Positions 14,898-30,309 of a stretch of 64,000 nt of DNA are shown one piece after another. The stretch is from Methanofollis ethanolicus. Its GTDB lineage: Archaea > Halobacteriota > Methanomicrobia > Methanomicrobiales > Methanofollaceae. Under the pieces are notes generated by a model. That model was not told where the DNA came from. It ran no database searches and was given only the letters and a program-made list of their open reading frames with translations. The translations under genes and the position numbers were made by a program. The stretch spans positions 2,457,470-2,521,469 of the forward strand of contig NZ_BCNW01000001.1 in NCBI RefSeq assembly GCF_001571385.1. The letters are read 5' to 3'. Position 1 is the first letter of the stretch. Each line of letters begins with the position of its first letter.

Positions 14898-15572
14898 ATG
14901 ACAAAAGAGGATATGTACAATGAAAAGAGTAATATTTACTATTCGAATATTCGATGGGATATAATCGACCTAATACCAGAAGGGAATCATAAAGTACTGG
15001 AAGTTGGGTGTGGCGCAGGGAATACCCTGATAAAATTAAAAGAGATCCATAAAGCCCAGGAGATATATGGTTTGGAAATGAATGAAGAGATCGTACAAGG
15101 ACATATCAAAGATATCAACAAAGTGATTGTTGGAGATATCGAACAGATAGATCCATCATTTCCAGAAGAATTTTTTGATTATATCATATTCGGGGATGTC
15201 TTAGAACATTTAATTGAACCAGAAAAGATTTTGAAAAAATACACGCGGTATCTTAAAAAGAATGGAATGATTGTTGCAAGCATCCCCAACATAAAAAATT
15301 ATACTGTACTGTTCGATTTATTAGTCCGAGATAAATTTGAATACAAAGATTCAGGCATCTTAGACCGGACTCACTTGAGATTTTTTACAAAGAGAGAAAT
15401 AATCAACATGTTCGAGAGGTCTAACCTGGATATATCGAAAATAAGATCAAATCTTAGTTTTCCAATGAATATTGTAGACAAAATGCTGGGCCATTTTATA
15501 AGTCGTCACAGACTGCCTAGTTCTTCATTTTTCACGATCCAATATATTGTCTGTGCAAAGAGGATGACATAA
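14898..15572 (+). CDS. SAM-dependent methyltransferase
   Basis: A 224-residue class I methyltransferase. VLEVGCGAGNTLIKL (residues 34-48) is the SAM-binding motif I, FDYIIFGDVLEHLIEPEKIL is motif IV, and LKKNGMIVASIPNIKNYTVL is the post-strand region. In a polysaccharide locus it probably methylates a sugar, but the acceptor cannot be predicted. Base composition is clearly more AT-rich than in the rfb genes upstream, marking the left edge of the island. Confidence 0.85.
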   Translation: MTKEDMYNEKSNIYYSNIRWDIIDLIPEGNHKVLEVGCGAGNTLIKLKEIHKAQEIYGLEMNEEIVQGHIKDINKVIVGDIEQIDPSFPEEFFDYIIFGDVLEHLIEPEKILKKYTRYLKKNGMIVASIPNIKNYTVLFDLLVRDKFEYKDSGILDRTHLRFFTKREIINMFERSNLDISKIRSNLSFPMNIVDKMLGHFISRHRLPSSSFFTIQYIVCAKRMT

Positions 15573-15636
15573 TTTTTCAGTAGTGCTTTTTATCGTTATA
15601 TAATTCATACTTTCAAAGAACCAAAGGAGTAAGCAC

Positions 15637-17097
15637 GTGGATCTTCACGCCAAGGACAGTAGCAATTTTAACCTCAAATCTTTCAGTAGTGATGTCCTGA
15701 TCTATTCCTTTGGACAGGCCGTTCTCCTGATCTTTGGATTTTTCCAGAGCCTGATCATCCCGAAATATCTCTCCACAGTAGACTATGGCTACTGGCAACT
15801 CTTCCTCCTCTGCGCGACTTATGTGGGTATCCTCCATCTCGGATTCCTCAATGGCATTCTTATTCGATGGGCAGGAAAAAACTTTGAAGATCTCAAAGAC
15901 GAAATCCCCATGGCCTTCAGGTTCATCCTTCTGGAACAGGGAGTCATTGTCGGCATCCTCATGTTGATTGCAGGATTGATCGATATACCATCAAAAGAGA
16001 TCGCTTTCACTGTGCTGGCTAATGCCATCATTGTTAATCTGATCACATTTTTTATTATTATTGCTCAGACAACAAGAAACTTCAAACTTATTACCAATGC
16101 CAATATTGGAAAGGGGTTATTATTTCTTATACTCATTCTGCTACTCTTCCTTGGTGGTTATTTCAGTTATCTTCTATTGATCCTTGCGACCATGGCCGCC
16201 GGACTTATTGTAGCAATAGTGTTTGTCTTCTACCTGCGGGGCAGCCTTTTTCACCATAATATCTGCAGAGTCTCTCTTTTCCAGTATGGTAAAGAAAACA
16301 TCGGGATCGGAATTTTTATTCTGCTGGGTGACTTTATCGCACTTATCTTCACGACAATCGACCGCGTGACCGTCGGATCGTTCTTCCCCATCACCCAGTT
16401 TGCCATCTACGCCTTTGCCATGACCATGTGCGGCCTCGCCACAGTCTTTCTTCAGGCGGTGGCGCAGGTCTTTTTCCCCTATCTCGCAGGTTCGAGCGGC
16501 GAAACCAGGACAAAGGCGTACACTCTCCTCAGGCCTGTTCTTGTGATCTTCTGGGCGGCGGTGCTCGCGGTCTATTTCCCCTTCTCCGTCTGGATCAGGT
16601 ACTACCTCCCTCACTATGCTGATAGCCTTTCCCTGATGGCGATCCTCCTCTGCACGGTCGGGTTCAGCGGGCAGATCAATATCCTCCATGCCAACTTCTT
16701 CAAAGTCTACCGGAAACAACGTGCATACTTTGTTCTTGCGGGAGTCTCCCTCATCGGGGCGATTGTCCTCAACCTCCTTGCCGTGTTCCTCTTCGGTACG
16801 CTCACGGCAGTGGCTGCCACAGCGGTTGTCAGTTTCAGCCTCTGGTACCTCCTCAATGAAGCAGCGCTCCGGCACCTCGTCGAAGTGCCGCTGAAAGAGA
16901 TTGTCAGGTGGGCGCTCGTGATCAGTGCGTATATCGGCGCCTTCCTTGGTGCCTATGCAGTGTCTGAAACATGGGTCATTGGGTTTTGTATCTATGCTGT
17001 ACTCTTTGCCGGGATCACCGCCGTTTGCCTCCGCAGGGAGACGGAGCAACTGTGGAGCATGTTCAGAGAGATAATAAAACGGAAGGAAGATGTCTGA
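15637..17097 (+). CDS. Polysaccharide flippase (Wzx-like)
   Basis: A 486-residue protein with about 12-14 hydrophobic helices, starting at GTG 15637 with an AAAGGAG site upstream. The N-terminus (DVLIYSFGQAVLLIFGFFQS, IPKYLSTVDYGYWQLF) is characteristic of oligosaccharide flippases of the MOP superfamily. It would move lipid-linked glycan units across the membrane. Its 5' half is AT-rich and its 3' half GC-rich, so the gene may be a recombinant between island and host DNA. It is coupled to the next gene by a TGATG overlap. Confidence 0.85.
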   Translation: MDLHAKDSSNFNLKSFSSDVLIYSFGQAVLLIFGFFQSLIIPKYLSTVDYGYWQLFLLCATYVGILHLGFLNGILIRWAGKNFEDLKDEIPMAFRFILLEQGVIVGILMLIAGLIDIPSKEIAFTVLANAIIVNLITFFIIIAQTTRNFKLITNANIGKGLLFLILILLLFLGGYFSYLLLILATMAAGLIVAIVFVFYLRGSLFHHNICRVSLFQYGKENIGIGIFILLGDFIALIFTTIDRVTVGSFFPITQFAIYAFAMTMCGLATVFLQAVAQVFFPYLAGSSGETRTKAYTLLRPVLVIFWAAVLAVYFPFSVWIRYYLPHYADSLSLMAILLCTVGFSGQINILHANFFKVYRKQRAYFVLAGVSLIGAIVLNLLAVFLFGTLTAVAATAVVSFSLWYLLNEAALRHLVEVPLKEIVRWALVISAYIGAFLGAYAVSETWVIGFCIYAVLFAGITAVCLRRETEQLWSMFREIIKRKEDV

Positions 17098-18161
17098 TGG
17101 TGTGCAATAGAAAGAATGGTATGGAAACAGCCCCCCGCGTCTCGATCATCATTCTGAACTGGAATGGATGGAAGGATACGATAGAGTGTCTGGAGTCAGT
17201 CTATCAGATTACGTATCCAAATTACGATGTTATTGTTGCAGACAACGGTTCTGAGAATGAATCAATAGAGAAAATCAAGGAGTACGCTGAGGGGAAGTTA
17301 GAAGTAACATCAAAATTTTTTAAATACTCGGGAGAGAACAAGCCATTCTGTTATATTGAATACACGCGTGAAGAAACTGAGGCGGGTAGTGGGAAAGAGG
17401 GGGAGATTAACGATCTCCCATCCTGGAAAAAACTCATAATAATAAAAAATGGGAAAAATTACGGCTTTGCTGAAGGAAACAATATTGCTATTAGATATGC
17501 CCTAAAAACGCTAAATCCCAAATACGTTCTTCTATTAAACAATGATACTGTTGTTGATAAGAGATTTCTTAACGAATTGGTAAATGTTGCAGAGTCCGAT
17601 AGAAGAATAGGATTTGTCGGACCAAAAACATACTATTACGATCATCATGGGCGAACCGACGTGATCAACTTTGCAGGCGGAAGGCTTGTAATGTGGAAAG
17701 GAAAGTCCATCCATATCGGTTTGAATGAAATTGATCGAGGACAACACGATGGTATCGCTGATGTTGACTATGTTGAAGGATCTTGCCTTCTTACACGACG
17801 GGAAATTTTAGAATCCATAGGTCTCCTTGATCCAACTTATTTTTTATATTGGGAAGAAACAGACTGGTGTATGCGGGTTCATAAGGCAGGATTAAGATTA
17901 GTGTATGCCCCAAAAGCAGAGATATGGCATAAAGTCGCCGCATCTAGCAAACCTAAATCAAATCCAGTAATAGAATACTATTGCACGAGAAATAGATCTC
18001 GATTTATAATGAAAAATGGATCAACATTAGATAAAACAATGTATAGCATGTATCTATTTGGATATTTGTCGATATCCAAGATTTTTGCGTCACTTCTGTT
18101 CTACCGAGATCTTGAAAGGTGTCGATTTGTCCTAAAAGGATTATTAGACGGATTCCGATAA
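17097..18161 (+). CDS. Family 2 glycosyltransferase
   Basis: A 354-residue GT2 enzyme starting at ATG 17097, which overlaps the flippase stop. SIIILNWNGWKDTIECLES is the N-terminal nucleotide-binding strand, VLLLNNDTVVDKRFL holds the metal-binding acidic motif, and YFLYWEETDWCMRVHKAG is the ED/QxxRW-like region. It resembles rhamnosyltransferases of the WbbL type, which fits the dTDP-rhamnose genes upstream; the acceptor is unknown. Confidence 0.88.
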   Translation: MVCNRKNGMETAPRVSIIILNWNGWKDTIECLESVYQITYPNYDVIVADNGSENESIEKIKEYAEGKLEVTSKFFKYSGENKPFCYIEYTREETEAGSGKEGEINDLPSWKKLIIIKNGKNYGFAEGNNIAIRYALKTLNPKYVLLLNNDTVVDKRFLNELVNVAESDRRIGFVGPKTYYYDHHGRTDVINFAGGRLVMWKGKSIHIGLNEIDRGQHDGIADVDYVEGSCLLTRREILESIGLLDPTYFLYWEETDWCMRVHKAGLRLVYAPKAEIWHKVAASSKPKSNPVIEYYCTRNRSRFIMKNGSTLDKTMYSMYLFGYLSISKIFASLLFYRDLERCRFVLKGLLDGFR

Positions 18162-18258
18162 CATGGAAGTATTTATGATACAGCGAGATAGATCACATCA
18201 AAATGAAAAGAGGAACTTGTTCCTTGTGTTTGTGAACTAAAATTGAAGAAGTATTACC

Positions 18259-19983
18259 ATGTCCAACAGAGATAATATTTCACAAAGAAGATTTTTCTTT
18301 TGCCTGTCAATTTTATCTTGGATTTTAATTGCAGTTATTGCATTCTATTTTAAATTTTTTCCCACTCTAATAAATCCTCTCTTTAGTGATTTATTTATTG
18401 TAACACTGATATTCTCTTTACTTCTCTCTCTGGTCATCGGTTCATTTATGATAAAATATTCTAATCAATTATTCTTTTTTCTACCCCAGTGCCTCTTGAT
18501 TTGTTTTTTTGCGAGGAGCGTCCGATCTCTGCGATCTTCGTATCCTCCATTGTGGGATCCGTATGCCTTTTTAGCGGCATTCCTTAACATCCACACATTT
18601 GGAACTCTGGAACCTATGTATAGTTACTGGGGAACTGTAATTGCGGGCTTAATTAAGTGGCCCTCAATGTTAATTATTACCGAGTCACTATCCAGAGTTG
18701 CTGGAATTAATTATCTGTGGCTTTTTGAATATCAGGAGCCTCTCCTTGGTATGATCTTTTTTTTAGCGATATTTGTGTTGGCATATTATCTCTCTAAAAA
18801 TTATGGAGTGGCTCTATTATCAGGGTTAATTTCATCTCTTGCTTCACATGTGATCTTTTATCAGTCCGAATATCACTACCAAGGCTATGCATATATAATG
18901 TTTGTATTTTTACTCATTTCATTGCTGGCAACTTGCAGATGTAAAAATCAGTCCAGGTACAAAATACTTGCAATTATATTCACTTTTGCCTGCGCATTTT
19001 CCCATTATTTTTCGTCTCTCTTTATTTTATTCATTCTAGGAGTGTTTTTTTGTTTTGTAAATCTCATTTCAGTGTTTAATCAAACATTTTCAAATTCTCG
19101 GTTAAACATAATAAAAATAAATAATCCCACTAATCTCTTTTTTTTTATATCGTTTATTCTCGTTATAAGTTATCATCTGTTTGTTTATCCCAAGAATATC
19201 GAACAGTATATAGATATGATTCTTAGTGCAGACCCATATCACGCTTCTCTAATTACCAGTGGGAAAGGAGGAAAAATCGTCCCTTTTCCAACGAATATCA
19301 TCCATGGTATCCGGTATGTCTTACTCCTTCTGGGATTTACCTCCATTCTTTATGCAATACGAAAAAATAAAACGGATGAGATAATATTAGGGATCATATG
19401 TGCAACATTAGTATTTTTGGGTATTTTGGGGAATACATTAGTTTATCTTGAAGTAGGTCGAATAGTTGCTTTTTACGAAGTTTTAATAGGTATTTTTGCG
19501 GCTTTAACCTTATTCCGACTACGAAATCTTTGGCTCAGAGCATTGAAAAATCAAAAATTAATAACCGCAATACTATGCATTGTTACAGCTGGTATTGTAA
19601 CATTGACTTTTTTTGGTGGACATTATATCCCAGATTATTATTTTAAAAGTTTGGATCAAAATAATTATTATTGGTGTAACAATGATTTGCCTGAGATGCA
19701 GGAATATAAATACGCAGGGACATGGGTCCATAATTATGCTCCAGAAAATTCTTATTTCGTTTCAATAGATAGTTCAGATTATTTCATTTACTCTGCCATT
19801 TTTTTCTGGGGGCACGTGAGTTATGAGAACCACGTAAAAAATCGGGCATACCTTCCAAAGGATTTGAATGAACCAATATTTACCCTCTCTAATCGAAGAA
19901 ATTTTAGTTCGGGGAAAAAAAGGATTATGGATGTAACAAATAAGTTATACTCCAACGAAGAGATAGAAATGACCGCATATTAA
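18259..19983 (+). CDS. Multi-pass membrane protein, GT-C-like or polymerase-like
   Basis: A 574-residue, strongly AT-rich gene. About 11-13 hydrophobic segments span residues 10-475, followed by an extracytoplasmic tail of about 100 residues (NYYWCNNDLPEMQEYKYAGT, ENSYFVSIDSSDYFIYSA). A loop between helices carries WDPYAFLAAFLNIH, in the place where GT-C enzymes have their acidic catalytic loop, and YQSEYHYQGY follows. It could be a GT-C glycosyltransferase or a glycan polymerase; no specific family is certain. It lies at the 3' end of the plus-strand part of the locus. Confidence 0.7.
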   Translation: MSNRDNISQRRFFFCLSILSWILIAVIAFYFKFFPTLINPLFSDLFIVTLIFSLLLSLVIGSFMIKYSNQLFFFLPQCLLICFFARSVRSLRSSYPPLWDPYAFLAAFLNIHTFGTLEPMYSYWGTVIAGLIKWPSMLIITESLSRVAGINYLWLFEYQEPLLGMIFFLAIFVLAYYLSKNYGVALLSGLISSLASHVIFYQSEYHYQGYAYIMFVFLLISLLATCRCKNQSRYKILAIIFTFACAFSHYFSSLFILFILGVFFCFVNLISVFNQTFSNSRLNIIKINNPTNLFFFISFILVISYHLFVYPKNIEQYIDMILSADPYHASLITSGKGGKIVPFPTNIIHGIRYVLLLLGFTSILYAIRKNKTDEIILGIICATLVFLGILGNTLVYLEVGRIVAFYEVLIGIFAALTLFRLRNLWLRALKNQKLITAILCIVTAGIVTLTFFGGHYIPDYYFKSLDQNNYYWCNNDLPEMQEYKYAGTWVHNYAPENSYFVSIDSSDYFIYSAIFFWGHVSYENHVKNRAYLPKDLNEPIFTLSNRRNFSSGKKRIMDVTNKLYSNEEIEMTAY

Positions 19984-20018
19984 CTGATGTCATAAATAGA
20001 TTATATTCTACACAGGTT

Positions 20019-21152
20019 TCATGGGATCATATTTGTAGAGAATATTTTTATTATGGCATTGCCAAATTCAACAATATCTCCCTCGTCAACTAAAAAACCG
20101 TTTTTAATCACTTCTCTATGTGGCCCAATATCAAATGCAACAACAGGTTTCCCACAGGCTTGAGCTTCAACTAAAGGCATGTTAAAACCCTCCACCAAAG
20201 AACATGTTGCATAGACATCGCAGGCAGCGTAGTAGTATGGTAATTCTTCATCAGACACAAAGCCAGCAAAAATGACACTAAGATCACATGCCCTTGCTAA
20301 GTCTTCTGAATATTGATTATCGTAACTTTTGCCAACGACAATGAGTTTAACATTGGGAAGACAGATTTTTACAATTTTGAAGGCCACTATCAAAGAATGA
20401 ATATTTTTTGTAGGAACGATCCTCCCAACAAAGAGGATCACAGGATCGTCTGATCCGATATGATATTTTGTCCGGATAGGTTCTTCATCTACATTGTTTC
20501 TATTAAACCGACTGGAATCAATTTCATCATATATTACTATGCTTTCGATACCCTTTTCATGCTGGAGTATAGCCTTCGAATGATTGCTTATAGAAACTAC
20601 CTGATCGAATTTTTTAATTTTTTTCCAATTAAAAGGTGAGATGGCCACTTTATAGAGCCGTACCTTCAAAGGTAAGAAACGAGATTCGGCAATGTGGTGA
20701 TGCCAGTAAATTACCTGAGTGTGATAGAATAATTTAGCAAAGTACGCTACAATCACTAAAGTTTCTTGGTGAACAATGATCAAACTGCTTTTTTTGAGAT
20801 CTAAACTTATTTTCAATGCTTTCCAAAGGTTAAACGGAAATAATGCGCGGTAGAGAACGTTTAACCTCGAAGCATATTTCTGGACCCAGGAATCAATAAT
20901 TCTAACATTATATCCTATCGGATCGATATCCGATTCAAACGTATAGACGATGACGGAGTAACCACGTTTTGACAATTCTCGGGCCTGAAATTCGGCAACT
21001 CTACTGGCCCCTTCAGATTTTAAGAAATATGATATCAAGATAACAATTGCATGTTGAGATGGATCTCCTGGAAGTACTTCTCTAATGAATTCAGAGAATT
21101 GATTATCTCCTAGAAATGATATCCTAGATACAGAATTAATTGGATCGTCCAT
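20019..21152 (-). CDS. Family 4 glycosyltransferase
   Basis: A 377-residue GT-B enzyme. The N-terminal domain includes LKSEGASRVAEFQARELSKR, typical of GT4; the C-terminal domain has ILFVGRIVPTKNIHSLIVAF and the nucleotide-sugar motif EGFNMPLVEAQACGKPVVAF (E-x7-E). It is the last gene of a minus-strand run of glycan genes beginning at 26989, separated from the previous one by 85 bp. Very AT-rich. Donor and acceptor are not predictable. Confidence 0.88.
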   Translation of the reverse strand: MDDPINSVSRISFLGDNQFSEFIREVLPGDPSQHAIVILISYFLKSEGASRVAEFQARELSKRGYSVIVYTFESDIDPIGYNVRIIDSWVQKYASRLNVLYRALFPFNLWKALKISLDLKKSSLIIVHQETLVIVAYFAKLFYHTQVIYWHHHIAESRFLPLKVRLYKVAISPFNWKKIKKFDQVVSISNHSKAILQHEKGIESIVIYDEIDSSRFNRNNVDEEPIRTKYHIGSDDPVILFVGRIVPTKNIHSLIVAFKIVKICLPNVKLIVVGKSYDNQYSEDLARACDLSVIFAGFVSDEELPYYYAACDVYATCSLVEGFNMPLVEAQACGKPVVAFDIGPHREVIKNGFLVDEGDIVEFGNAIIKIFSTNMIP

Positions 21153-21237
21153 CTTTTTCCCTCAATAAAGATAAACCCATATTTGCTCTAAAGATTGTGA
21201 ATCTCTCACAACCTCCACTCAAAGCATAAATTGACAA

Positions 21238-22383
21238 TTAAGTAATCCTTATTGAGACTTCCCGATAAATTCTCATCGTCTTCTTTGCAACACTTTCCCA
21301 GGATAACTCCTCCGCTTTCTTTCTCACGTTCGTTTCCATCATAGTTCTCAAATTAGGATCTGCCAACAACCGGATGATCGCATCTGCTAATGCCAGAGGA
21401 TCACCTGGAGGCACAAGCAGCCCTGTCTTGCCATGTTCAACTGCTTCGTCAAGCCCGCCGACATCGCTTACAATAACGGGTTTTCCAAATGCATAGGCAA
21501 CATTGAGTACCCCACTCATCCCACTCATCTCTGTATAGGGCAGTACCACAAGAGCTGAGCGCTGGAAGAGGGAGGCGACAAGGTCGTCAGGTATGAACTC
21601 ATTGTGGACCTCAAGTGTTGATCTGTCGCAGACCTCCATTAAGGAGTGATACGGTGAAAGATCTCCCTCTCCGGCGATGATCACTTTAAGACTTGGAATC
21701 TGTTTGACAATTGTTGGAACTGCACTGAGAAGTATGTCTAATCCCTTGTATTCTCGGATATTCCCAAAAAAAAGAACTGTATCCTTTTCTTCAGGAATTT
21801 CTTTTTTGTAATGGGTAAAGAAATCGTACGTGCCATGGGGGATTACTACAACATTTTTTTTCTCCAGATGTCGTGCTGCCAGTAGTTCTTCCCTGTCATT
21901 TAGGGTGTGCACAATAATTTTTTTGAACGATAGGAACTGTTCAGAAAAGTTCAGGACATACTCTTCAAATATTTTCTTAAAGAGTCCAGAATTCGAATAG
22001 AGCCCATGTTTTGTATATACTATAGGGTATTTTCTATCAATTCTATTGATGAAAAGAAAGAAGGCAAGTGGCGGTATAAGAGGTGTTGTGATATGAATAA
22101 TATCTGGATCTATTTTTCCGATAGTTTTGATTCTCCTGAATGAAATGAGAGCAAATAGGTTCTGAAAAGAGATTACTTTTCTTAAATGGTTCATGGAGAA
22201 GTCCAGATGATCAAATAGTTTTATTATCGTTATCTTTTTTGAGAAATAGTCTGCAGGGATGTTGTTGCTGCCAACAACTGTTACATCAGCATTCTCAGCG
22301 ACTGCATTCGCTATCTCCGCTGTATACTGGGGCATGCCTCCCCAATCGTAGGGGAGAATATACAATATCCGCATCCTACCCAC
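21238..22383 (-). CDS. Family 4 glycosyltransferase
   Basis: A 381-residue GT-B enzyme. ILYILPYDWGGMPQYTAEIA is the N-terminal substrate-loop region; DTVLFFGNIREYKGLDILLS and MSGVLNVAYAFGKPVIVSD with GGLDEAVEHGKTGLLVPPGD form the C-terminal donor domain. The start used is 22383; the next in-frame ATG, three codons later, is equally possible. It lies 41 bp downstream of the second HprK-like gene in the same orientation. Confidence 0.9.
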   Translation of the reverse strand: MGRMRILYILPYDWGGMPQYTAEIANAVAENADVTVVGSNNIPADYFSKKITIIKLFDHLDFSMNHLRKVISFQNLFALISFRRIKTIGKIDPDIIHITTPLIPPLAFFLFINRIDRKYPIVYTKHGLYSNSGLFKKIFEEYVLNFSEQFLSFKKIIVHTLNDREELLAARHLEKKNVVVIPHGTYDFFTHYKKEIPEEKDTVLFFGNIREYKGLDILLSAVPTIVKQIPSLKVIIAGEGDLSPYHSLMEVCDRSTLEVHNEFIPDDLVASLFQRSALVVLPYTEMSGMSGVLNVAYAFGKPVIVSDVGGLDEAVEHGKTGLLVPPGDPLALADAIIRLLADPNLRTMMETNVRKKAEELSWESVAKKTMRIYREVSIRIT

Positions 22384-22424
22384 TTAACCCTATTGTCCTC
22401 TCATACGTTAGTCATTTCCAGTGC

Positions 22425-23513
22425 CTATCGCCTTGAGTAGCAATGCTCTTTTTGGAGCTCACTGAAATACGTTCTAAAGTTAGCTTTTAGATTGACTATT
22501 TTAAATATTTCAACGATTTTTGGGATAGATTCTTTTATAATATCATTAGTTTCTGGGAAATTAAAACTACTTCTGTTGTGGAATATATATGAATAGGCAC
22601 ACATCATATCAAAAAAATAATTTGGTATATCCAAATCGGAGGTATTGTTTAGATTGCATAAGCTTTCGGCAAGGTTGTTATTTATTAATGAGCATGTTGT
22701 AGCATCATAATGATCTGAGACTTTAGTTAGATCAGAAATCGAGCCCTGAACTTTATCTACCAAACTAATCGATCTTATTTCTCCTTGTTCCGCAATATTA
22801 AATTTACTCATTAGTTTATGAGATCTTTTCATAATGAATACTGCAGCCTTTATTTTCTCGATAAATGTACCGTGCTCTTTTGAATAATCACTAACAAGTA
22901 GGTGATTAAATAAACCAAAATATCTCAGAAAACTATACGCGATTCCATTTTTTATTATGATCTTATCGTCCCCAAGATATGAATATTCCAAGTTGTTGAT
23001 GCTATATGCGATAGCAGATGTTTTTGATGATCCACTTCTTCCAGAAAATAAAAGCGCTTCGTTTTCATCATTACAGACAGCTGCTACATGCAGAAGGCAG
23101 TAGCCTTTTTTTGCCAATATATAATCTATGAGAGATTCAAGATAAACAACCTGAGAGAAGTTGTTGGGAGCTACAACTCCTCGTAGGGACTTATGTATCC
23201 AACAAAAATTGATGATTATTTCTTCAGTTTCAATACCGTTGATTTCAACCTGCCATTTTGCCAGGCCTTCCTGCTCTCTGCAGTAGATGTAGTCTTTTTT
23301 AATATGATATTTTCTGAAGACAATATCACATTCACTATTATTCGGCTTGAAAGGACCAACATTCAAAATAATATCGGGATCTTGCACTGATTCAACCTCA
23401 AAATATGAAAAAGGGAAGTTGAAATCTGGGAGATAGTCGTTCCCGTCGTCACATACTATCTGGAATGTCAGGATATCATGGATATTGTAATTTTTGACAA
23501 TTCTCTTTCTCAT
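22425..23513 (-). CDS. HprK-like P-loop protein 2
   Basis: A 362-residue protein of the HPr-kinase/PEP-carboxykinase-like P-loop type. The Walker A motif is GRSGSSKTS at residues 158-166, followed by YSYLGDDKIIIKNG at 178-191, the conserved metal/base region of HprK-like kinases. The first 140 residues are beta-rich and hold PDIILNVGPFKPNNSECDIV. It is a distant paralogue of the neighbour at 23524, with Walker A at the same residue number. HprK-like kinases occur in surface-glycan and RiPP clusters; the substrate here is unknown. The gene is very AT-rich. Confidence 0.75.
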   Translation of the reverse strand: MRKRIVKNYNIHDILTFQIVCDDGNDYLPDFNFPFSYFEVESVQDPDIILNVGPFKPNNSECDIVFRKYHIKKDYIYCREQEGLAKWQVEINGIETEEIIINFCWIHKSLRGVVAPNNFSQVVYLESLIDYILAKKGYCLLHVAAVCNDENEALLFSGRSGSSKTSAIAYSINNLEYSYLGDDKIIIKNGIAYSFLRYFGLFNHLLVSDYSKEHGTFIEKIKAAVFIMKRSHKLMSKFNIAEQGEIRSISLVDKVQGSISDLTKVSDHYDATTCSLINNNLAESLCNLNNTSDLDIPNYFFDMMCAYSYIFHNRSSFNFPETNDIIKESIPKIVEIFKIVNLKANFRTYFSELQKEHCYSRR

Positions 23514-23523
23514 GCGATCACCT

Positions 23524-24591
23524 CTAAAGCGTATCCAGAATCGTCTCTTTCAGCCACTTGTGAACCCTCTGATAGTCTTCCGGGCGTAACCTGATCTCAT
23601 AGGCTTCAATGTCCTTTGGAATGTTTGCCTGTAAGTTCTGGGCATACCGATCAAGATCCTTTTCCAGTTCATTGGAAGGATAGATCGTGGAATAATTATA
23701 TACATGCCTGAGGAACCGCCTGTTTTCAAAAAGCTGGTTTGTATAAAAGTGATCAATGACCTTTTCTGTGTCAATCGGGGTTATTTCATATTTGTAACTC
23801 GGTTGAATACATATAATGGTTTTCAGTCGAGATTTTCTCCCGATATATTGTGGGAATACATCTCTGGACTTAAGATAGACAAAACCTCCAATATATCCGA
23901 GAGTCACAGTTTCAAGGAACCGATTGAGAGAAAGCCCCATCCGGTTTTTTCTGCTGATTATATCTGATATATATTGTATGTTCCCCTGTTTAAATCCTGG
24001 GCACTCGGGAAATTCGAAGGTGTAACCATTATGAATGAGTATTCGATCGTCCCCTAAGAATTTGAATCCCTCTTTCAGGCACGACAGCGAAAAAGATGTT
24101 TTTCCCGCACCGCCAGGCCCGGTAAACAGTATTGAATGATCGTTCTTGCATACGCCAGAGGCATGTAACGAACAGATCCCTCGTTGATTTAACATAAAAT
24201 AAACAATGTAATCGATGACCTGCTCATGAATAACCCGATTTCCAAAAAAATTGGGTTGAATCCGAAGTAAGATTGGCTTCTCTTTATCTGACTTGTTGAA
24301 ATTGGATAACTCAAACTGATATTTTGCGATTTTATATTTAAAACTCCCAAACAGGTAATCATCTTTGACTTTATATATGTCATTTTCAACAAGATTGCAA
24401 TCGATTTGAGGGGTAAATTTTCCAAGTTCTATGACTAAATCCGGTGTATCAAACGTCTTAGATGTAGAGAAATAATCATAATCTTTTTCGAACAAACTAA
24501 CCTGTCGTGAAAGATAATCTCTCTTATCTTTTAAGGTGATATTCAATGAATTATGGAGTGAATAGTGTCTTTCTATCATGTTAACACTCAC
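23524..24591 (-). CDS. HprK-like P-loop protein 1
   Basis: A 355-residue protein with Walker A GPGGAGKTS at residues 158-166 and KFLGDDRILIHNG at 177-189, the paired motifs of HprK-like kinases. The preceding HEQVIDYIVYFMLNQRGICS and LHASGV are typical of this group, in which a conserved LHAS/A stretch precedes the P-loop. It overlaps the radical SAM gene by 4 bp and is followed 10 bp later by its paralogue, so the three are probably co-translated. No HPr or PTS genes are visible, so a role in classical carbon control is unlikely. Confidence 0.78.
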   Translation of the reverse strand: MSVNMIERHYSLHNSLNITLKDKRDYLSRQVSLFEKDYDYFSTSKTFDTPDLVIELGKFTPQIDCNLVENDIYKVKDDYLFGSFKYKIAKYQFELSNFNKSDKEKPILLRIQPNFFGNRVIHEQVIDYIVYFMLNQRGICSLHASGVCKNDHSILFTGPGGAGKTSFSLSCLKEGFKFLGDDRILIHNGYTFEFPECPGFKQGNIQYISDIISRKNRMGLSLNRFLETVTLGYIGGFVYLKSRDVFPQYIGRKSRLKTIICIQPSYKYEITPIDTEKVIDHFYTNQLFENRRFLRHVYNYSTIYPSNELEKDLDRYAQNLQANIPKDIEAYEIRLRPEDYQRVHKWLKETILDTL

Positions 24592-26033
24592 TTAGATACA
24601 TACCCCAAAAACATCTTCGTGGAAAACCAGAGTCTTTTCACTTCAGCGACAGCGTTTTTCCTGCAGACCTGCCTCATCGCCAGCGGCACATATCCCGGCG
24701 AGAGATAGTATCCCCGCAAGATCTCATTCGCCTCGCGTACCATCTCTTCGTTGCTCAGGGCAGGGTAGGAGAGGATCGCCTTCTGGTGACCTTCATCATC
24801 GAGGTACTCGTTGGGATCATCAGTGAGAAGATATCCGTTACCCTTACACCAGACATAAAACTCCGTTCCCGGGAAGGGAGATGCCACGGCAACCTGCAGG
24901 ATGTCGGGCCTCACCTCACGGATGAGTTTCTTCGTCTGCTCGATCGTCTCTTTGGTTTCCCCCGGCAGCCCGATGATGAAGTCCCCATGAACAAGCAGCC
25001 CTGCCTTCCGGGCATTCTCTGCAAATGTTCTGATCTGATCGGTGGTGATCCCCTTCTTGATCGCCTGCAGGATGGAATCAACACCGGATTCATACCCCGC
25101 AATGAGCAGACGGCAGTTCGCCTTCTTCATCGCCTGCATCGTCTCAAGGTCTAGGGTGTTTGCGCGGGCATTGCAGGACCAGGTGACCGAGAGGCCGCGT
25201 TCCTGATAACCCTTACAGAACTCCATGACCCGTTCTTTGCTGATGGTGAAGGTGTCGTCCTCGAAGAAGACTTCCTTGACCTTCAGGTTGGCCTCGATCC
25301 AGGCAAGCTCATCCAGTACGCTGGCGATGCTTCTCACGCGATACTTCCGTCCGGTGAGAGTCTGTGGCCAGGCGCAGAAGGTGCACTGGTTTGGACACCC
25401 CCTTCCGGTGAATATCTGGACCTCAGGGTAAAGAGATTGCCCGAGAAAATAGTCCTCGATATGGAGATATTTTTTGTAGACTTTCGAGACAAAGGGGATT
25501 GTATCGAGGTCTGCCGAGGTGGAGAATTCACGATCAGGGTTGTGAACGACCTGGCCGTTGACTCTGTAGGAGATGCCTTTGACAGAGGAGAGGTCACCAG
25601 CGTCTTCAAGAACCCTCGCTAGTTCCCGGAGCGTAAAGTCGTACTCCCACCGAACAACAATATCAATTGCGGCATGCTTCAGGATCTGTGCCGCATACTG
25701 GGACGCCGGGGGGCCGACAAGAACCGTCGTTATCGCAGGATAGCTATCCTTCACGGCCTCTGCAACGCTGATATCATTATTGAGGCTGGGGAAACTGGAA
25801 TCGATGACCAGAATATCTGGATCAAATTTGCCTATATCATCTATGACATCCTCTATCTTCCAGTTCCATGCAGGTGCATCGACAAGCCGCGTTTCATGCT
25901 CCTGTTCAAGGAGTGCAGTTGCGTAGGACAGCCAGATAGGATAATACAATGTGCCTGCCCTTCCCGTGTCCTGCCATCGCGCACTCCTCCCGAAATGAGG
26001 GAAGTACGGGGGGTTGAGAAGATAGATCTTCAT
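24588..26033 (-). CDS. B12-binding domain radical SAM protein
   Basis: A 481-residue enzyme. Residues 1-150 form a cobalamin-binding Rossmann-like domain (LLNPPYFPHFGRSARW, DILVIDSSFPSLNND); the radical SAM cluster motif is RGCPNQCTFC with C213, C217 and C220. HGDFIIGLPGETKETIEQT is the typical glycine-rich segment of the BchE-like group. Such enzymes methylate or rearrange unactivated carbons. In this context the target could be a sugar, a lipid carrier or a peptide handled by the adjacent kinases. Coupled by 4-bp overlaps to genes on both sides. Confidence 0.9.
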   Translation of the reverse strand: MKIYLLNPPYFPHFGRSARWQDTGRAGTLYYPIWLSYATALLEQEHETRLVDAPAWNWKIEDVIDDIGKFDPDILVIDSSFPSLNNDISVAEAVKDSYPAITTVLVGPPASQYAAQILKHAAIDIVVRWEYDFTLRELARVLEDAGDLSSVKGISYRVNGQVVHNPDREFSTSADLDTIPFVSKVYKKYLHIEDYFLGQSLYPEVQIFTGRGCPNQCTFCAWPQTLTGRKYRVRSIASVLDELAWIEANLKVKEVFFEDDTFTISKERVMEFCKGYQERGLSVTWSCNARANTLDLETMQAMKKANCRLLIAGYESGVDSILQAIKKGITTDQIRTFAENARKAGLLVHGDFIIGLPGETKETIEQTKKLIREVRPDILQVAVASPFPGTEFYVWCKGNGYLLTDDPNEYLDDEGHQKAILSYPALSNEEMVREANEILRGYYLSPGYVPLAMRQVCRKNAVAEVKRLWFSTKMFLGYVSK

Positions 26034-26989
26034 GGAGAACTCCTTTTCGTGATGCTTGCGACGGTGCCTGTCCAGAATCCGAACATATAGGCAATGTGTT
26101 CAAGGAGATAGACGATCGGAACTGAGAGGAGATAATCCGCTTTTCTGACTTTTCCAAAAATGGCGATGGTATATGCCCCTACTATTCCTGCATAGATCAC
26201 AACTAGGGCAGCGGATGCAAGTGGGGCAATAAATGCAAGCAGCAGGATCCCGATGGCTGCCAGAGGCGGGACGACCTGAAGGTCCCAGAGGCGGTTGATG
26301 CCTCGACCATAGCCGAAGAAGTGCATCCGCCTGACAAACTCTACGATCGTTCTCTCCTGGTTATGATGGACGAGGGCATCGGGAGTGTAGACGAGTGTGC
26401 CGAGGCGTTGCATCCGCGTGTTCAGTTCGGTGTCTTCATTGATGGAAAGCTTGACATCGAACCCCCCTACCGTCACGAGATCCTTCTTCCGGTACATACT
26501 GCTGCAGCCGCTGATACTCCTGACAACCCTCTTACCCGGGAGGACGCGGTCCTGGACCGAGTTTGCACTCCCGAGAAAAGTGTCGAGGGCGAGGGCGATG
26601 GACTCCTCCCAGAGGCCGGTACCGATATTTTTGATCCCGCCTCCCACACCTGCTATGCCGTCCTCGAATTCTCGGACGAGGTTTTCAAGCCAGTCCTTCT
26701 GGGGGATGCAGTCGGCGTCGGTAAAGGCGACATAGTCTCCCCCTGCCTCCTCAACACCAACCTGGCGGGCACCGCCGACTGTCCCGTAGTCCTCGAAGAC
26801 CACCCGGGTCTGGAATTTTCTTGCGATCTCAACGGTTGCATCCGTGGAGTGGCCGTCGACGACGATGATCTCATAGGGTTGTAGTGTTTGATTGAGGAGG
26901 GCCTGAAGGCAGCGCTCAATTTTTGGCACCCCATTTCTGACCGGGACGACGACAGAGATTTTCTGAGGGTGCAGACGAGAAGAATTCAT
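26030..26989 (-). CDS. Family 2 glycosyltransferase, membrane-anchored
   Basis: A 319-residue GT2 enzyme. KISVVVPVRNGVPKIERCLQ is the N-terminal strand, DYVAFTDADCIPQKDW carries the DxD motif and SINEDTELNTRMQRLG the ED motif. Two or three C-terminal hydrophobic helices (about 240-310) anchor it to the membrane. It is the first gene of the coupled run with the radical SAM and HprK-like proteins, so it presumably builds the glycan those proteins modify. Confidence 0.9.
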   Translation of the reverse strand: MNSSRLHPQKISVVVPVRNGVPKIERCLQALLNQTLQPYEIIVVDGHSTDATVEIARKFQTRVVFEDYGTVGGARQVGVEEAGGDYVAFTDADCIPQKDWLENLVREFEDGIAGVGGGIKNIGTGLWEESIALALDTFLGSANSVQDRVLPGKRVVRSISGCSSMYRKKDLVTVGGFDVKLSINEDTELNTRMQRLGTLVYTPDALVHHNQERTIVEFVRRMHFFGYGRGINRLWDLQVVPPLAAIGILLLAFIAPLASAALVVIYAGIVGAYTIAIFGKVRKADYLLSVPIVYLLEHIAYMFGFWTGTVASITKRSSP

Positions 26990-27079: not shown

Positions 27080-28186
27080 TCAGTGTATGGTGATCTGTTC
27101 AGCGTTTTCAGAAGTGTGCGTGCACCTAACTCTCACCCCGCACTGCCCCTGCATAATCTGCACAAGCGAGTACAAAATCATCCCCGCGGTGGCGAGCAGC
27201 AACCCCAGGAGCAGGGCGAACAACCCCCCCGTGAAGACGATATAGTGGAACTGGGCGGTCTCGTAGAACTCCGAAAACGTGTAGAGTTCGGCAGCGAGGC
27301 CGACAACCGTGAAGACAGTGCCGGGAATCCCGAAGAACACCAGCGGCCGGCGGAGGCTGATCAGCCGGACGATGTTCATCAGCACACCGACCCCATGCGA
27401 AACAGGGTTCTCACTTGACGTCCCCTCGATGTCGTACCGCACCGTGATCGGCACCTCGGCGATCCGAAGACCGGCGTCGGCGGCCTGGATCAGGATCTCG
27501 GAGCCGGCAGACATGCCCTCGCCGGCGATGTGCACGGCCTCGATGGCCCGCTGGCCGTACGCCCGGAAGCCTGACTGGGAGTCGGAGACCTGGAGGTCGC
27601 CGCCGGCGAACTCGGTCATCTCGTCGAGGACCTTCATGCCGACCTTGCGGTAGGCAGGGATGTCGCCCTTCGAGCCGTCGAGGAAGCGGGAGCCGATGAC
27701 GACGTCGGCGCCGCCGTCGAGTCTGGTGAGGAGGGCCGGGATATCACGCGGATCATGCTGGCCGTCGGCGTCGAGGATGACGAGGGCGTCGGCCCGGACG
27801 GCGCGGGCGGTCTCGAAGATCGTGCGCAGGGCCCCGCCATAGCCCTGGTTGGTCTTATGCTGGATGACGAGGGCGCCGAGGGCGCGGGCGATCTCGACGG
27901 TGGCGTCGGAGGAGCCGTCGTCGACGACGAGGACGACGTCGACGTACTTCCTGGCGCCGAGGACCGTCTTCGCGATGAAGCGCTCCTCATTGTAGGCAGG
28001 CATCGCGGCGATCGTCTGGCCGGGGGGGACCTGGTCGAGAGAGGTGACAGGGAACCCTCCCACTGTCTGCCCTGTCCCATCAGGAGGGAAAGAACGGGCA
28101 GACGCCACCCCACTTCCAGCAGGGCAGGGTCCGGCCTGCACCCGATGTACTTCATGTATACTGCTCTGATTCACGCGCACCCACAT
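27080..28186 (-). CDS. Family 2 glycosyltransferase, dolichyl-phosphate type
   Basis: The conserved enzyme begins at IAAMPAYNEERFIAKTVLGA (about 28007), continues with VLVVDDGSSDATVEIA and LVILDADGQHDPRDIP (DxD), and ends with two hydrophobic helices at about residues 275-350. It resembles archaeal Dpm1/AglJ-like enzymes that charge dolichyl phosphate. The true start is uncertain: the frame is open to 28186, a GTG lies at 28108, and upstream residues are not family-like. It is GC-rich, unlike the neighbouring AT-rich island genes. Confidence 0.85.
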   Translation of the reverse strand: MWVRVNQSSIHEVHRVQAGPCPAGSGVASARSFPPDGTGQTVGGFPVTSLDQVPPGQTIAAMPAYNEERFIAKTVLGARKYVDVVLVVDDGSSDATVEIARALGALVIQHKTNQGYGGALRTIFETARAVRADALVILDADGQHDPRDIPALLTRLDGGADVVIGSRFLDGSKGDIPAYRKVGMKVLDEMTEFAGGDLQVSDSQSGFRAYGQRAIEAVHIAGEGMSAGSEILIQAADAGLRIAEVPITVRYDIEGTSSENPVSHGVGVLMNIVRLISLRRPLVFFGIPGTVFTVVGLAAELYTFSEFYETAQFHYIVFTGGLFALLLGLLLATAGMILYSLVQIMQGQCGVRVRCTHTSENAEQITIH

Positions 28187-28474: not shown

Positions 28475-28738
28475 ATGCGCGGTGCCGGCTACATCGGGGC
28501 AGGGGCGATCGCCCTGTGGACAGGGGTCGTCGCCTTTTTCATGCTCCTGAACAGGGCCCTCGACCTGGAGGTCTCTTTTGTGCTCTGGCTCATCGGCCTC
28601 CTCGCGGTCACGGTGCTCATCGACACGCCTTTTGTCCAGCCGCGGTACCTGAAGGGGATCAAGGTGATCATCGCCGCGGGCGTGATCGTCTTCGGCTATA
28701 TCGTCGTGATGAAGGTGCTGGAGATCCTGGCGAAATGA
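28475..28738 (+). CDS. Small membrane protein
   Basis: An 87-residue protein from ATG 28475, preceded by a GAGATCAGGGAT ribosome-binding region. It consists of three hydrophobic helices (GYIGAGAIALWTGVVAFFML, FVLWLIGLLAVTVLI, VIIAAGVIVFGYIVVM) with short loops. The frame is open far upstream but without similarity or start-site support. Its stop overlaps the ATG of the next gene (ATGA), so the two are co-translated. No family recognised; it may be a membrane partner of the DUF4129 protein. Confidence 0.65.
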   Translation: MRGAGYIGAGAIALWTGVVAFFMLLNRALDLEVSFVLWLIGLLAVTVLIDTPFVQPRYLKGIKVIIAAGVIVFGYIVVMKVLEILAK

Positions 28739-30309
28739 AGGGTGCACAGGTCCTGGCCGCCCTCCTGGTGCTGGCCTGCATCGGCCTCCTCGCCCTCCAG
28801 GCAGGGGAGCCCCTCCTCTGGACCGCGAAAGATACGGAGAACCCGGCCGAGGCCGACCTCTCGGCAGCAGAAAAAATAAACGCGAAGGGGGCCGCATCCC
28901 TCGTCCCCCTGATGCAGGACATACTCGGGCAGGGGAGCACGGTCGTCCTCTCCGTGCAGGTGAAGGACTTTGAGAGTGCAGAGAAGGACCTGAAAGAATA
29001 CGCAGAGATGACGCACTCGGTGGACAACCTGGTCGTGAACCTCGACCTCACCGGCACAGACATCGACGAGTTCAGGCAGAAGAGCCGGGAGAACCTGGAG
29101 AGCCTCACGACTCTCGTCAATGGCACGGAGCGCCTGGAGGAGATCAGGGTCGAGTACAGGGACGAAAAAGATCCGGGGAAGGTCTACTCCCTCGTCTACG
29201 AGGGCGAGGCACTGAAGAAGGAGCTGCAGGGGGCGGCGACGACCTATGAGAGGGCGGCGGCGAAGACGGTCGCCATCGGGGAGAAGTACGAGGCCGACAC
29301 CGCGGCCCACGAGGAGAGCGTCAAAACCTTCCGGGGGATCGTCGGGGAGGAGACGAAAGGGGGAATCGCCCTGCCGCCGCCCGCGCTCGGCCTCGCGATA
29401 GAGCCGGGGGAGGCGCGGTTCGGGGACCTCATCACCCTGCGGGGCACGGCGCCGGCAGGAAAGACTGTCGAGGCCTTCGTCGACAGCAGGCAGGCAGGGA
29501 GTGCACACTCGACAGGGGTCTACGCAATCGAGCACAGGATCGAGAGAGGCCGGGCAGGCCCGCACCTGGCGTATGTCCAATCGGGCGACGCCGTCTCGGG
29601 CCTCGTCGAGTTCACGGTGCTCGCCTCGCCCGCGGACCTCACTCTCGCGGCGAATGAGAGCATGGTCTCCGGCACACTCACCGCACAGGGCCGCGGGGTC
29701 GCGGGCGCGAGGATCGCCCTCCTCATCGACGGGACAGAGGCCACGAGACTGACGACAGGGGAGGGGGGGAGGTATGAGGATACCATCAACCTCGCCGCGG
29801 GGCGCCACACCCTCCAGGCCGTCTTCTCGGGCGAGGGCTTCCCCCTCGACCCGGCAGAGAGTCCCGAGGTCGTCGTGGAGAGGGGAGGCCTCCCCGTCGC
29901 CGCGGCCGCCTTCCTGATCCTCCTTGGCGGCATAGGCGTCGTCCTGTACCGCCGCAGGCGGAAAGAGGAGGACGTGACGCCGGTGCTTGCGGAGAGGCTG
30001 GTACCACCTCCACCTGAAGAAGAGGAAGATGTCCCTGTCACCGTCGCCGGCCTCCCCCCTGAGGAGGCCGCAGTCGCCCTCTGGCAGGGCCTCGCGGACG
30101 CGGCGGAGAGGCAGTACGGCGTGAAAAACGCCCGCTCCCTGACCCCGCGGGAGATCGCCGCCGCACTCACAGAGACGCCGGCACAGGAGGCGGCGGCCGC
30201 CTTCGCGATGCTGTACGAGGCGATCCGGTACGCCGGCCTCCCCTGCGGAGAAAACGAGGTCGCACACCTGGAGGCCCTGTACCACGCCGTCAGGGAGCCT
30301 GGAGGATAG
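28735..30309 (+). CDS. DUF4129 membrane protein with extracellular Ig-like domains
   Basis: A 524-residue protein from ATG 28735. Layout: an N-terminal signal/TM helix (residues 5-22); a charged, probably coiled-coil region (about 60-190); two beta-rich Ig/Big-like segments (about 200-390, e.g. EPGEARFGDLITLRGTAPAG and SMVSGTLTAQGRGVAGARIA); a TM helix (PVAAAAFLILLGGIGVVLY, about 394-412); and a cytoplasmic C-terminal DUF4129 domain ending in RSLTPREIAAAL. DUF4129 proteins often accompany transglutaminase-like and MoxR/DUF58 genes, none of which is here. Topology suggests a surface sensor or assembly factor; function unknown. Confidence 0.8.
   Translation: MKGAQVLAALLVLACIGLLALQAGEPLLWTAKDTENPAEADLSAAEKINAKGAASLVPLMQDILGQGSTVVLSVQVKDFESAEKDLKEYAEMTHSVDNLVVNLDLTGTDIDEFRQKSRENLESLTTLVNGTERLEEIRVEYRDEKDPGKVYSLVYEGEALKKELQGAATTYERAAAKTVAIGEKYEADTAAHEESVKTFRGIVGEETKGGIALPPPALGLAIEPGEARFGDLITLRGTAPAGKTVEAFVDSRQAGSAHSTGVYAIEHRIERGRAGPHLAYVQSGDAVSGLVEFTVLASPADLTLAANESMVSGTLTAQGRGVAGARIALLIDGTEATRLTTGEGGRYEDTINLAAGRHTLQAVFSGEGFPLDPAESPEVVVERGGLPVAAAAFLILLGGIGVVLYRRRRKEEDVTPVLAERLVPPPPEEEEDVPVTVAGLPPEEAAVALWQGLADAAERQYGVKNARSLTPREIAAALTETPAQEAAAAFAMLYEAIRYAGLPCGENEVAHLEALYHAVREPGG

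Follow-up and report, generated by a model that had tools for sequence, protein, structure and literature searches.

The window analysed here, which is the whole stretch of 64,000 nucleotides of Methanofollis ethanolicus DNA headed above, comes from the genome of a methanogen carrying two mcrA genes. We examined three consecutive genes of this window, encoding a cobalamin-binding radical SAM (S-adenosylmethionine) enzyme resembling HpnJ, hereafter rSAM, and two P-loop proteins, hereafter K1 and K2. The results showed that K1 and K2 represent two ancient paralogous clades that are inherited together, and that the K1-K2 pair moves horizontally as a unit and has docked repeatedly beside an already resident rSAM gene at glycan loci. 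Both proteins are predicted to have the fold of the HprK/PEPCK superfamily. In our view the best explanation of the whole, which we hold at about even chances, is that K1 and K2 phosphorylate a lipid-linked surface glycan while rSAM remodels a sugar of the same glycan. Although the HprK/PEPCK superfamily itself is already known, a K1/K2 pair that is inherited jointly, moves horizontally and is associated with archaeal glycan loci carrying an HpnJ-like rSAM gene is new within the open-access literature searched, in which no paper used the term 'HprK-related kinase' and searches for HprK together with archaeal glycans gave unrelated titles only. The three genes are as follows.

24588..26033, minus strand: rSAM, HpnJ-like cobalamin-binding radical SAM protein, 481 amino acids (TIGR03471, 465 bits; PF04055; PF02310)
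23524..24591, minus strand: K1, predicted HprK/PEPCK-fold kinase with canonical P-loop, 355 amino acids; likely true start ATG 24579
22425..23513, minus strand: K2, paralogous protein of the same predicted fold with altered P-loop (GRSGSSKTS), 362 amino acids

Pairing, linkage and horizontal transfer of K1 and K2

All three open reading frames and the motifs that an earlier note had pointed out in them are present. The sequence CPNQCTFC at residues 213-220 of rSAM corresponds to CxxxCxxC and follows an N-terminal B12-binding domain (E 5.9e-12), and K1 and K2 both carry a Walker A motif at residues 158-166 (GPGGAGKTS and GRSGSSKTS, respectively), followed by LGDDR in K1 and LGDDK in K2. The 10-bp gap given for K1 and K2 was confirmed. 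The 4-bp overlap given for rSAM and K1 holds only if K1 starts at a GTG; because the homologue of K1 in the ANME-2 (anaerobic methanotrophic) archaeon HR1 (locus L071) starts at the position of K1 Met5, i.e. ATG 24579, the overlap is probably a mis-called start and the real arrangement an 8-bp gap. By BLASTP, K1 and K2 share 31% identity over their N-terminal 200 or so residues with an E-value of 6e-23; the resemblance is therefore not due to chance, and the two proteins are paralogs, as had been proposed.

To find relatives, profiles of K1 and K2 were searched against 232 genomes of the window's class, 393 of its phylum and 238 of the class of genome G504. Strong matches occurred in few of these genomes, and K1-K2 pairs were found in the window, in its congener G002, in G504 and in the HR1 genome, G560. 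A scan with an rSAM alignment recovered the HR1 pair and added one in JdFR-43 (L076), so that the three-gene neighbourhood recurs in at least five archaea. In each of the five pairs rSAM, K1 and K2 lie on one strand with the pair downstream, and 0 to 5 genes separate rSAM from K1. The order rSAM-K1-K2-GT4 (GT4, glycosyltransferase family 4) in HR1 is identical to that in the window, with identities of 57, 54, 41 and 54%, respectively; in G002 a GT4 gene separates rSAM from K1, and in G504 five genes lie in that position.

Linkage was counted in 470 genomes of two archaeal classes, taking matches with E <= 1e-120 as rSAM orthologs. The rSAM gene is present in 15 of them and the pair in 4, and all four pair genomes also carry rSAM, with the pair at most 6 kb away. 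With the window left out, 3 of 3 pair genomes against 14 rSAM genomes in 469 gives a chance probability of about 2e-5, and with both the window and G002 left out, 2 of 2 from 10 in 238 gives about 1.6e-3; both values ignore the relatedness of the genomes.

In a tree of 25 sequences K1 and K2 each form one clade (support 97 and 96), showing that the doubling remarked on by the earlier note is conserved, and both clades split alike, into the window and HR1 on one side and G504, G002 and JdFR-43 on the other. In the rSAM tree, the window and G002 are sisters with 91% identity, but identity between their kinases is no more than 28-29%, and forcing the kinases of the window and G002 together was rejected by the approximately unbiased (AU) test (p 1e-37 for K1 and 5e-6 for K2). 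Pairwise identities of K1 correlate with those of K2 (r 0.66), but neither set correlates with those of rSAM (r -0.31 and -0.40; ten non-independent pairs). Mapped on the rSAM tree, presence of the pair requires four changes, three of which are forced by well-supported branches.

Base composition changes at the border between rSAM and K1. The pair lies at one end of an island of genes (14898-24591) with GC contents of 0.33-0.42 and GC contents at third codon positions (GC3) of 0.31-0.42, the flippase-like gene being less extreme (0.49 and 0.61), in a window of 58% GC overall. GC3 is 0.40 for K1 and 0.33 for K2, as compared with 0.65 for rSAM (GC 0.53) and 0.8-0.9 for host-like genes; rmlBDA and manC-like genes have GC 0.60-0.67 and GC3 0.82-0.91. 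The same step is seen in G002. Because the trees of K1 and K2 concur and strongly reject the rSAM history, and because the low-GC island starts at the rSAM border, we concluded that the pair is mobile and has been docked repeatedly.

Unpaired relatives were also found. G023 carries a single gene of this type, and G542 and G349 carry a more distant single kinase in the order rSAM-GT4-methyltransferase-kinase-GT4. The single K2-type genes in G601, G584 and G582 (L167, L168 and L169), which have GDE instead of GDD, adjoin an ATP-grasp gene and a thymidylate-kinase-like gene. In the more distant archaeon G539, three HprK-like genes stand in tandem among glycosyltransferase-like neighbours (L060 7697-10762), and an HpnJ-like rSAM gene lies more than 1 Mb away. 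Distant HprK-like relatives in G589 (L171 3744-5514) and G005 (L009 8497-9381) were seen by eye beside signal-peptidase-like genes, with a PqqD-like neighbour as well in G589; these sets resemble peptide maturation rather than glycan clusters. K1 was not found in phages or, in a scan based on K1 aligned to its HR1 homologue, in viral contigs. Plasmids gave nothing but short distant matches to K1, a Halobaculum match being without glycan context; PHROGs gave no match, and the sole PADLOC match was weak and to a generic rSAM.

Predicted fold and catalytic residues

AlphaFold2 models of K1 and K2 were built from six sequences. The K1 model has a mean predicted local distance difference test score (pLDDT) of 75 and a predicted template modelling score (pTM) of 0.78; the K2 model has a pLDDT of 64 and is of moderate quality in its C-terminal part. 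Foldseek ranked PEPCK and HprK at the top for both models, and alignment to PEPCK 2pc9 by VIA-align gave Z 16.3 with a root-mean-square deviation (rmsd) of 3.7 for K1 and Z 13.2 with an rmsd of 4.6 for K2, over 269 residues each. Every one of the 12 sequences in the family alignment has a match to HprK_rel_B in the P-loop region, the best at E 1.6e-11, and a profile built from them matches, weakly, PEPCK and HprK chains in the PDB and no other chains. The models thus bear out the HprK-like fold that the earlier note had suggested. That note had staked its proposal beforehand on such a fold and on a conserved neighbourhood, and for the K1-K2 pair the former is predicted and the latter was found.

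Neither protein passes a curated Pfam or NCBIfam cut-off. For HPr kinase/phosphorylase (TIGR00679) K1 scores 14.9 bits against a cut-off of 240 and K2 is not listed; for ATP-dependent PEPCK (PF01293) K1 scores 19.2 against 26.5; and for HprK-related kinase B (TIGR04355) K1 and K2 score 30.5 and 14.1, respectively, against 200. A search with PF00381 found no HPr gene in the source genome, which is 99.7% complete, whereas seven control genomes matched. Since the genome encodes no HPr, K1 and K2 are ruled out as HPr kinases, which agrees with the idea of HprK-like kinases working without HPr.

According to the alignment of the 25 relatives, the catalytic set is His143-Lys164-Asp181-Asp182 in K1 and His142-Lys164-Asp182-Asp183 in K2. 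Of the ten proteins that make up the five pairs, all keep His-Lys-Asp and nine keep the second Asp as well. The window K1 retains the second P-loop glycine and is canonical (GxxxxGK[ST]). Active phosphotransfer by K1/K2 is likely.

Among known systems, HPr kinase/phosphorylase shares with K1 and K2 the P-loop kinase core with His, Lys and Asp-Asp, but their N-terminal and C-terminal regions differ. ATP-dependent PEPCK matches the fold of K1 over its whole length and its His232-Lys254-Asp268/269 have counterparts; unlike it, K1 and K2 have about 350 amino acids only, and the position of Lys213 is apparently Gln by an ungapped count. The HprK-related kinases A and B (TIGR04352, TIGR04355) are alike at the P-loop, but K1 and K2 are far under their 200-bit cut-off. 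The lasso-peptide kinases PadeK, ThcoK and PsmK have the same His-Lys-Asp-Asp set, which is essential in them, and the phosphate added by PsmK is further glycosylated (PMC9266682); they differ in that K1 and K2 form a tandem pair, and in that the search of the locus revealed no genes for a peptide pathway.

The radical SAM enzyme and its locus

The best family for rSAM is TIGR03471 (HpnJ), matched over the full length with 465.1 bits, the next family scoring 152, and its closest relatives are archaeal orthologs with 51-91% identity. HpnJ, which likewise has B12-binding and radical SAM domains and acts on an isoprenoid-linked sugar, turns the glucosamine of bacteriohopanetetrol into a cyclitol ether (PMC12583986) and is counted among the few non-methylating cobalamin radical SAM enzymes (PMC13142503). 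For the archaeal radical SAM enzyme calditol synthase (Cds), ring contraction of a lipid-linked hexose has been proposed (PMC9385802). Because of these three points, we consider it most likely, by analogy, that rSAM remodels a lipid-linked sugar. The carbon methylation put forward in the earlier note is thus not upheld. By sequence, the closest solved structure to rSAM is AprD4. We take AprD4 to be a sugar-acting radical SAM dehydratase, and dehydration is an alternative option for the rSAM reaction.

The other features of the locus are listed below.

27080..28186, minus strand: AglJ/dolichyl-phosphate-hexose-transferase-like glycosyltransferase family 2 (GT2) gene (TIGR04182 E 2e-40, under cut-off); conserved core upstream of rSAM
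26030..26989, minus strand: GT2 glycosyltransferase (PF00535 5e-32); 4-bp overlap with rSAM
21238..22383, minus strand: GT4 glycosyltransferase directly after K2 (PF13692 7e-31)
20019..21152, minus strand: second GT4 glycosyltransferase, within the low-GC island (PF00534 9e-37; GC3 0.33)
14898..24591: low-GC island with methyltransferase, flippase-like, GT2 and membrane protein genes, two GT4 genes, K2 and K1; ends at the rSAM/K1 junction

A GT2 gene lies upstream and two GT4 genes lie downstream of rSAM-K1-K2, in keeping with the flanking GT2 and GT4 genes of the earlier note. The AglJ-like gene has a GC3 of 0.83, and its relatives sit upstream of rSAM in G078, G005, G039, L068, L069 and others. 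Relatives of the second GT2 adjoin rSAM in G002 (73% identity), G078 (56%) and L069 (60%). In L071 a relative of the GT4 directly after K2 likewise follows K2 (54% identity), and in L065 and L170 such a relative comes after the single kinase. A gene for a DUF4129 membrane-anchored protein (28516-30309) stands near the rSAM core, likewise in G002 (47% identity) and G039 (38%).

At five other rSAM loci an alternative cassette of a glycosyltransferase, a thymidylate-kinase-like gene and sometimes a type I phosphodiesterase was found, never together with HprK-like genes, an exclusivity that is not significant (hypergeometric about 0.15). It stands in place of K1-K2 (L023 7894-8562 and 6440-7903; L075, L077, L187 (L069) and L080) and is possibly a different phosphate-handling cassette.

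With glycosyltransferases, flippase-like and sugar-nucleotide genes as neighbours of K1/K2, it is likely that the locus works on a glycan. As for the substrate classes offered by the earlier note, gene context supports a surface glycan well and does not support a small peptide; that a glycan is the substrate of K1/K2 themselves is a fair guess.

Proposed function and alternatives

We propose that an island for surface-glycan biosynthesis has its border in this region. One flank would be a conserved core comprising the AglJ-like GT2, a further GT2 at several loci, and then rSAM; the other would be an exchangeable low-GC cassette starting with K1-K2 and including the GT4 genes. This arrangement suggests a shared core sugar modified by rSAM and a variable outer glycan phosphorylated by K1-K2. 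Presumably rSAM would remodel the shared lipid-linked core sugar without methylation, as HpnJ does on a glucosaminyl-hopanoid, and K1-K2, acting as phosphotransferases in a heteromer or in two successive steps, would phosphorylate a sugar, or a group linked to a sugar, in the outer part, other parts being built by the neighbouring glycosyltransferases. Whether the kinase step depends directly on the rSAM product is uncertain, and we lean slightly against it. Divided labour between the subunits is one possible reading, based on the canonical nucleotide site of K1 and the altered P-loop with intact Asp-Asp of K2. The fullest version, in which an obligate K1/K2 heteromer with divided labour spread as a unit among archaea and phosphorylates a radical-remodelled, possibly ring-contracted lipid-linked sugar, is rather unlikely.

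Several observations weigh against the proposal. The 465.1 bits of rSAM fall below the HpnJ equivalog cut-off of 577.6, as do the 423-457 bits of relatives in its clade, and hopanoid production is not known from any archaeon (PMC6770870); for both reasons the rSAM reaction is an analogy. The HpnJ partners were not found at the locus either: the neighbouring GT2 scores 20.6 against the HpnI cut-off of 310, and no deacetylase domain, expected of HpnK, was found among the scanned neighbours. In 8 of 8 K2-clade members the second P-loop glycine is replaced by Phe or Ser, which makes it uncertain whether K2 is active. The pair is absent from most rSAM loci, and the single K2-type genes of G601, G584 and G582 have no rSAM in the examined stretch.

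The main rival is a purely positional linkage, in which rSAM is the last conserved core gene at the border of a hypervariable island and K1-K2 one docking cassette biochemically unrelated to the rSAM product. The GC break exactly at the rSAM/K1 junction, the conflict between kinase and rSAM trees, the genes intervening in G002 and G504 and the many rSAM loci without an HprK-like gene are consistent with it. However, the pair is confined to rSAM loci in the 470 genomes and is always downstream on the same strand, and about four independent gains or losses of it have to be assumed on the rSAM tree; we regard this rival as the less probable account, though a serious one. The coupling is looser than the earlier note proposed, since most rSAM loci are without kinases and the rSAM tree conflicts with those of the kinases.

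It is improbable that K1 and K2 lack kinase activity and serve the glycan machinery as scaffold or nucleotide-sensing subunits, K2 being a degenerate partner. The lost K2 glycine would fit this, as would the Arg that replaces the Ser/Thr after the P-loop Lys in HR1 K2 and the loss or change of the Asp pair in some relatives (SNEP in G023, SEE in G349 and G542), but the His-Lys-Asp-Asp set is essentially intact across the five pairs and the K1 P-loop is canonical apart from the first glycine in two members. More improbable still is the original suggestion, in which B12-dependent methylation of carbon is coupled with the phosphorylation of a glycan, its carrier or a peptide: rSAM has a B12-binding domain and most known cobalamin radical SAM enzymes are methylases (PMC13142503), but methylase families score at most about 138 bits against 465 for the non-methylating HpnJ. 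A pathway for ribosomally synthesized and modified peptides, in which K1/K2 would act as the lasso-peptide kinases do, is very improbable despite the shared catalytic set (PMC9266682) and the gene set seen in G589, since PqqD, cyclase and transporter domains were not found among the annotated neighbours, K1, K2 and rSAM follow one another almost without gaps and contain no internal open reading frames other than mechanical ones, and the paired clades occur solely among glycosyltransferases.

Recurrence of the pair in distant archaea points to an undescribed phosphate step in the building of archaeal surface sugars and, on the proposed function, predicts that methanogens and ANME archaea contain a sugar that is both phosphorylated and remodelled by radical chemistry; the chemistry of archaeal surface glycans is poorly known. 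With the pair, the HprK/PEPCK kinases, for which few substrates besides HPr are known, gain a branch whose members are paired. Since the pair is exchanged while the rSAM border stays fixed, it also shows how glycan islands of archaea exchange their components. If a heteromer does act on a radical-remodelled sugar, this would be an undescribed route to phosphorylated archaeal surface glycans.

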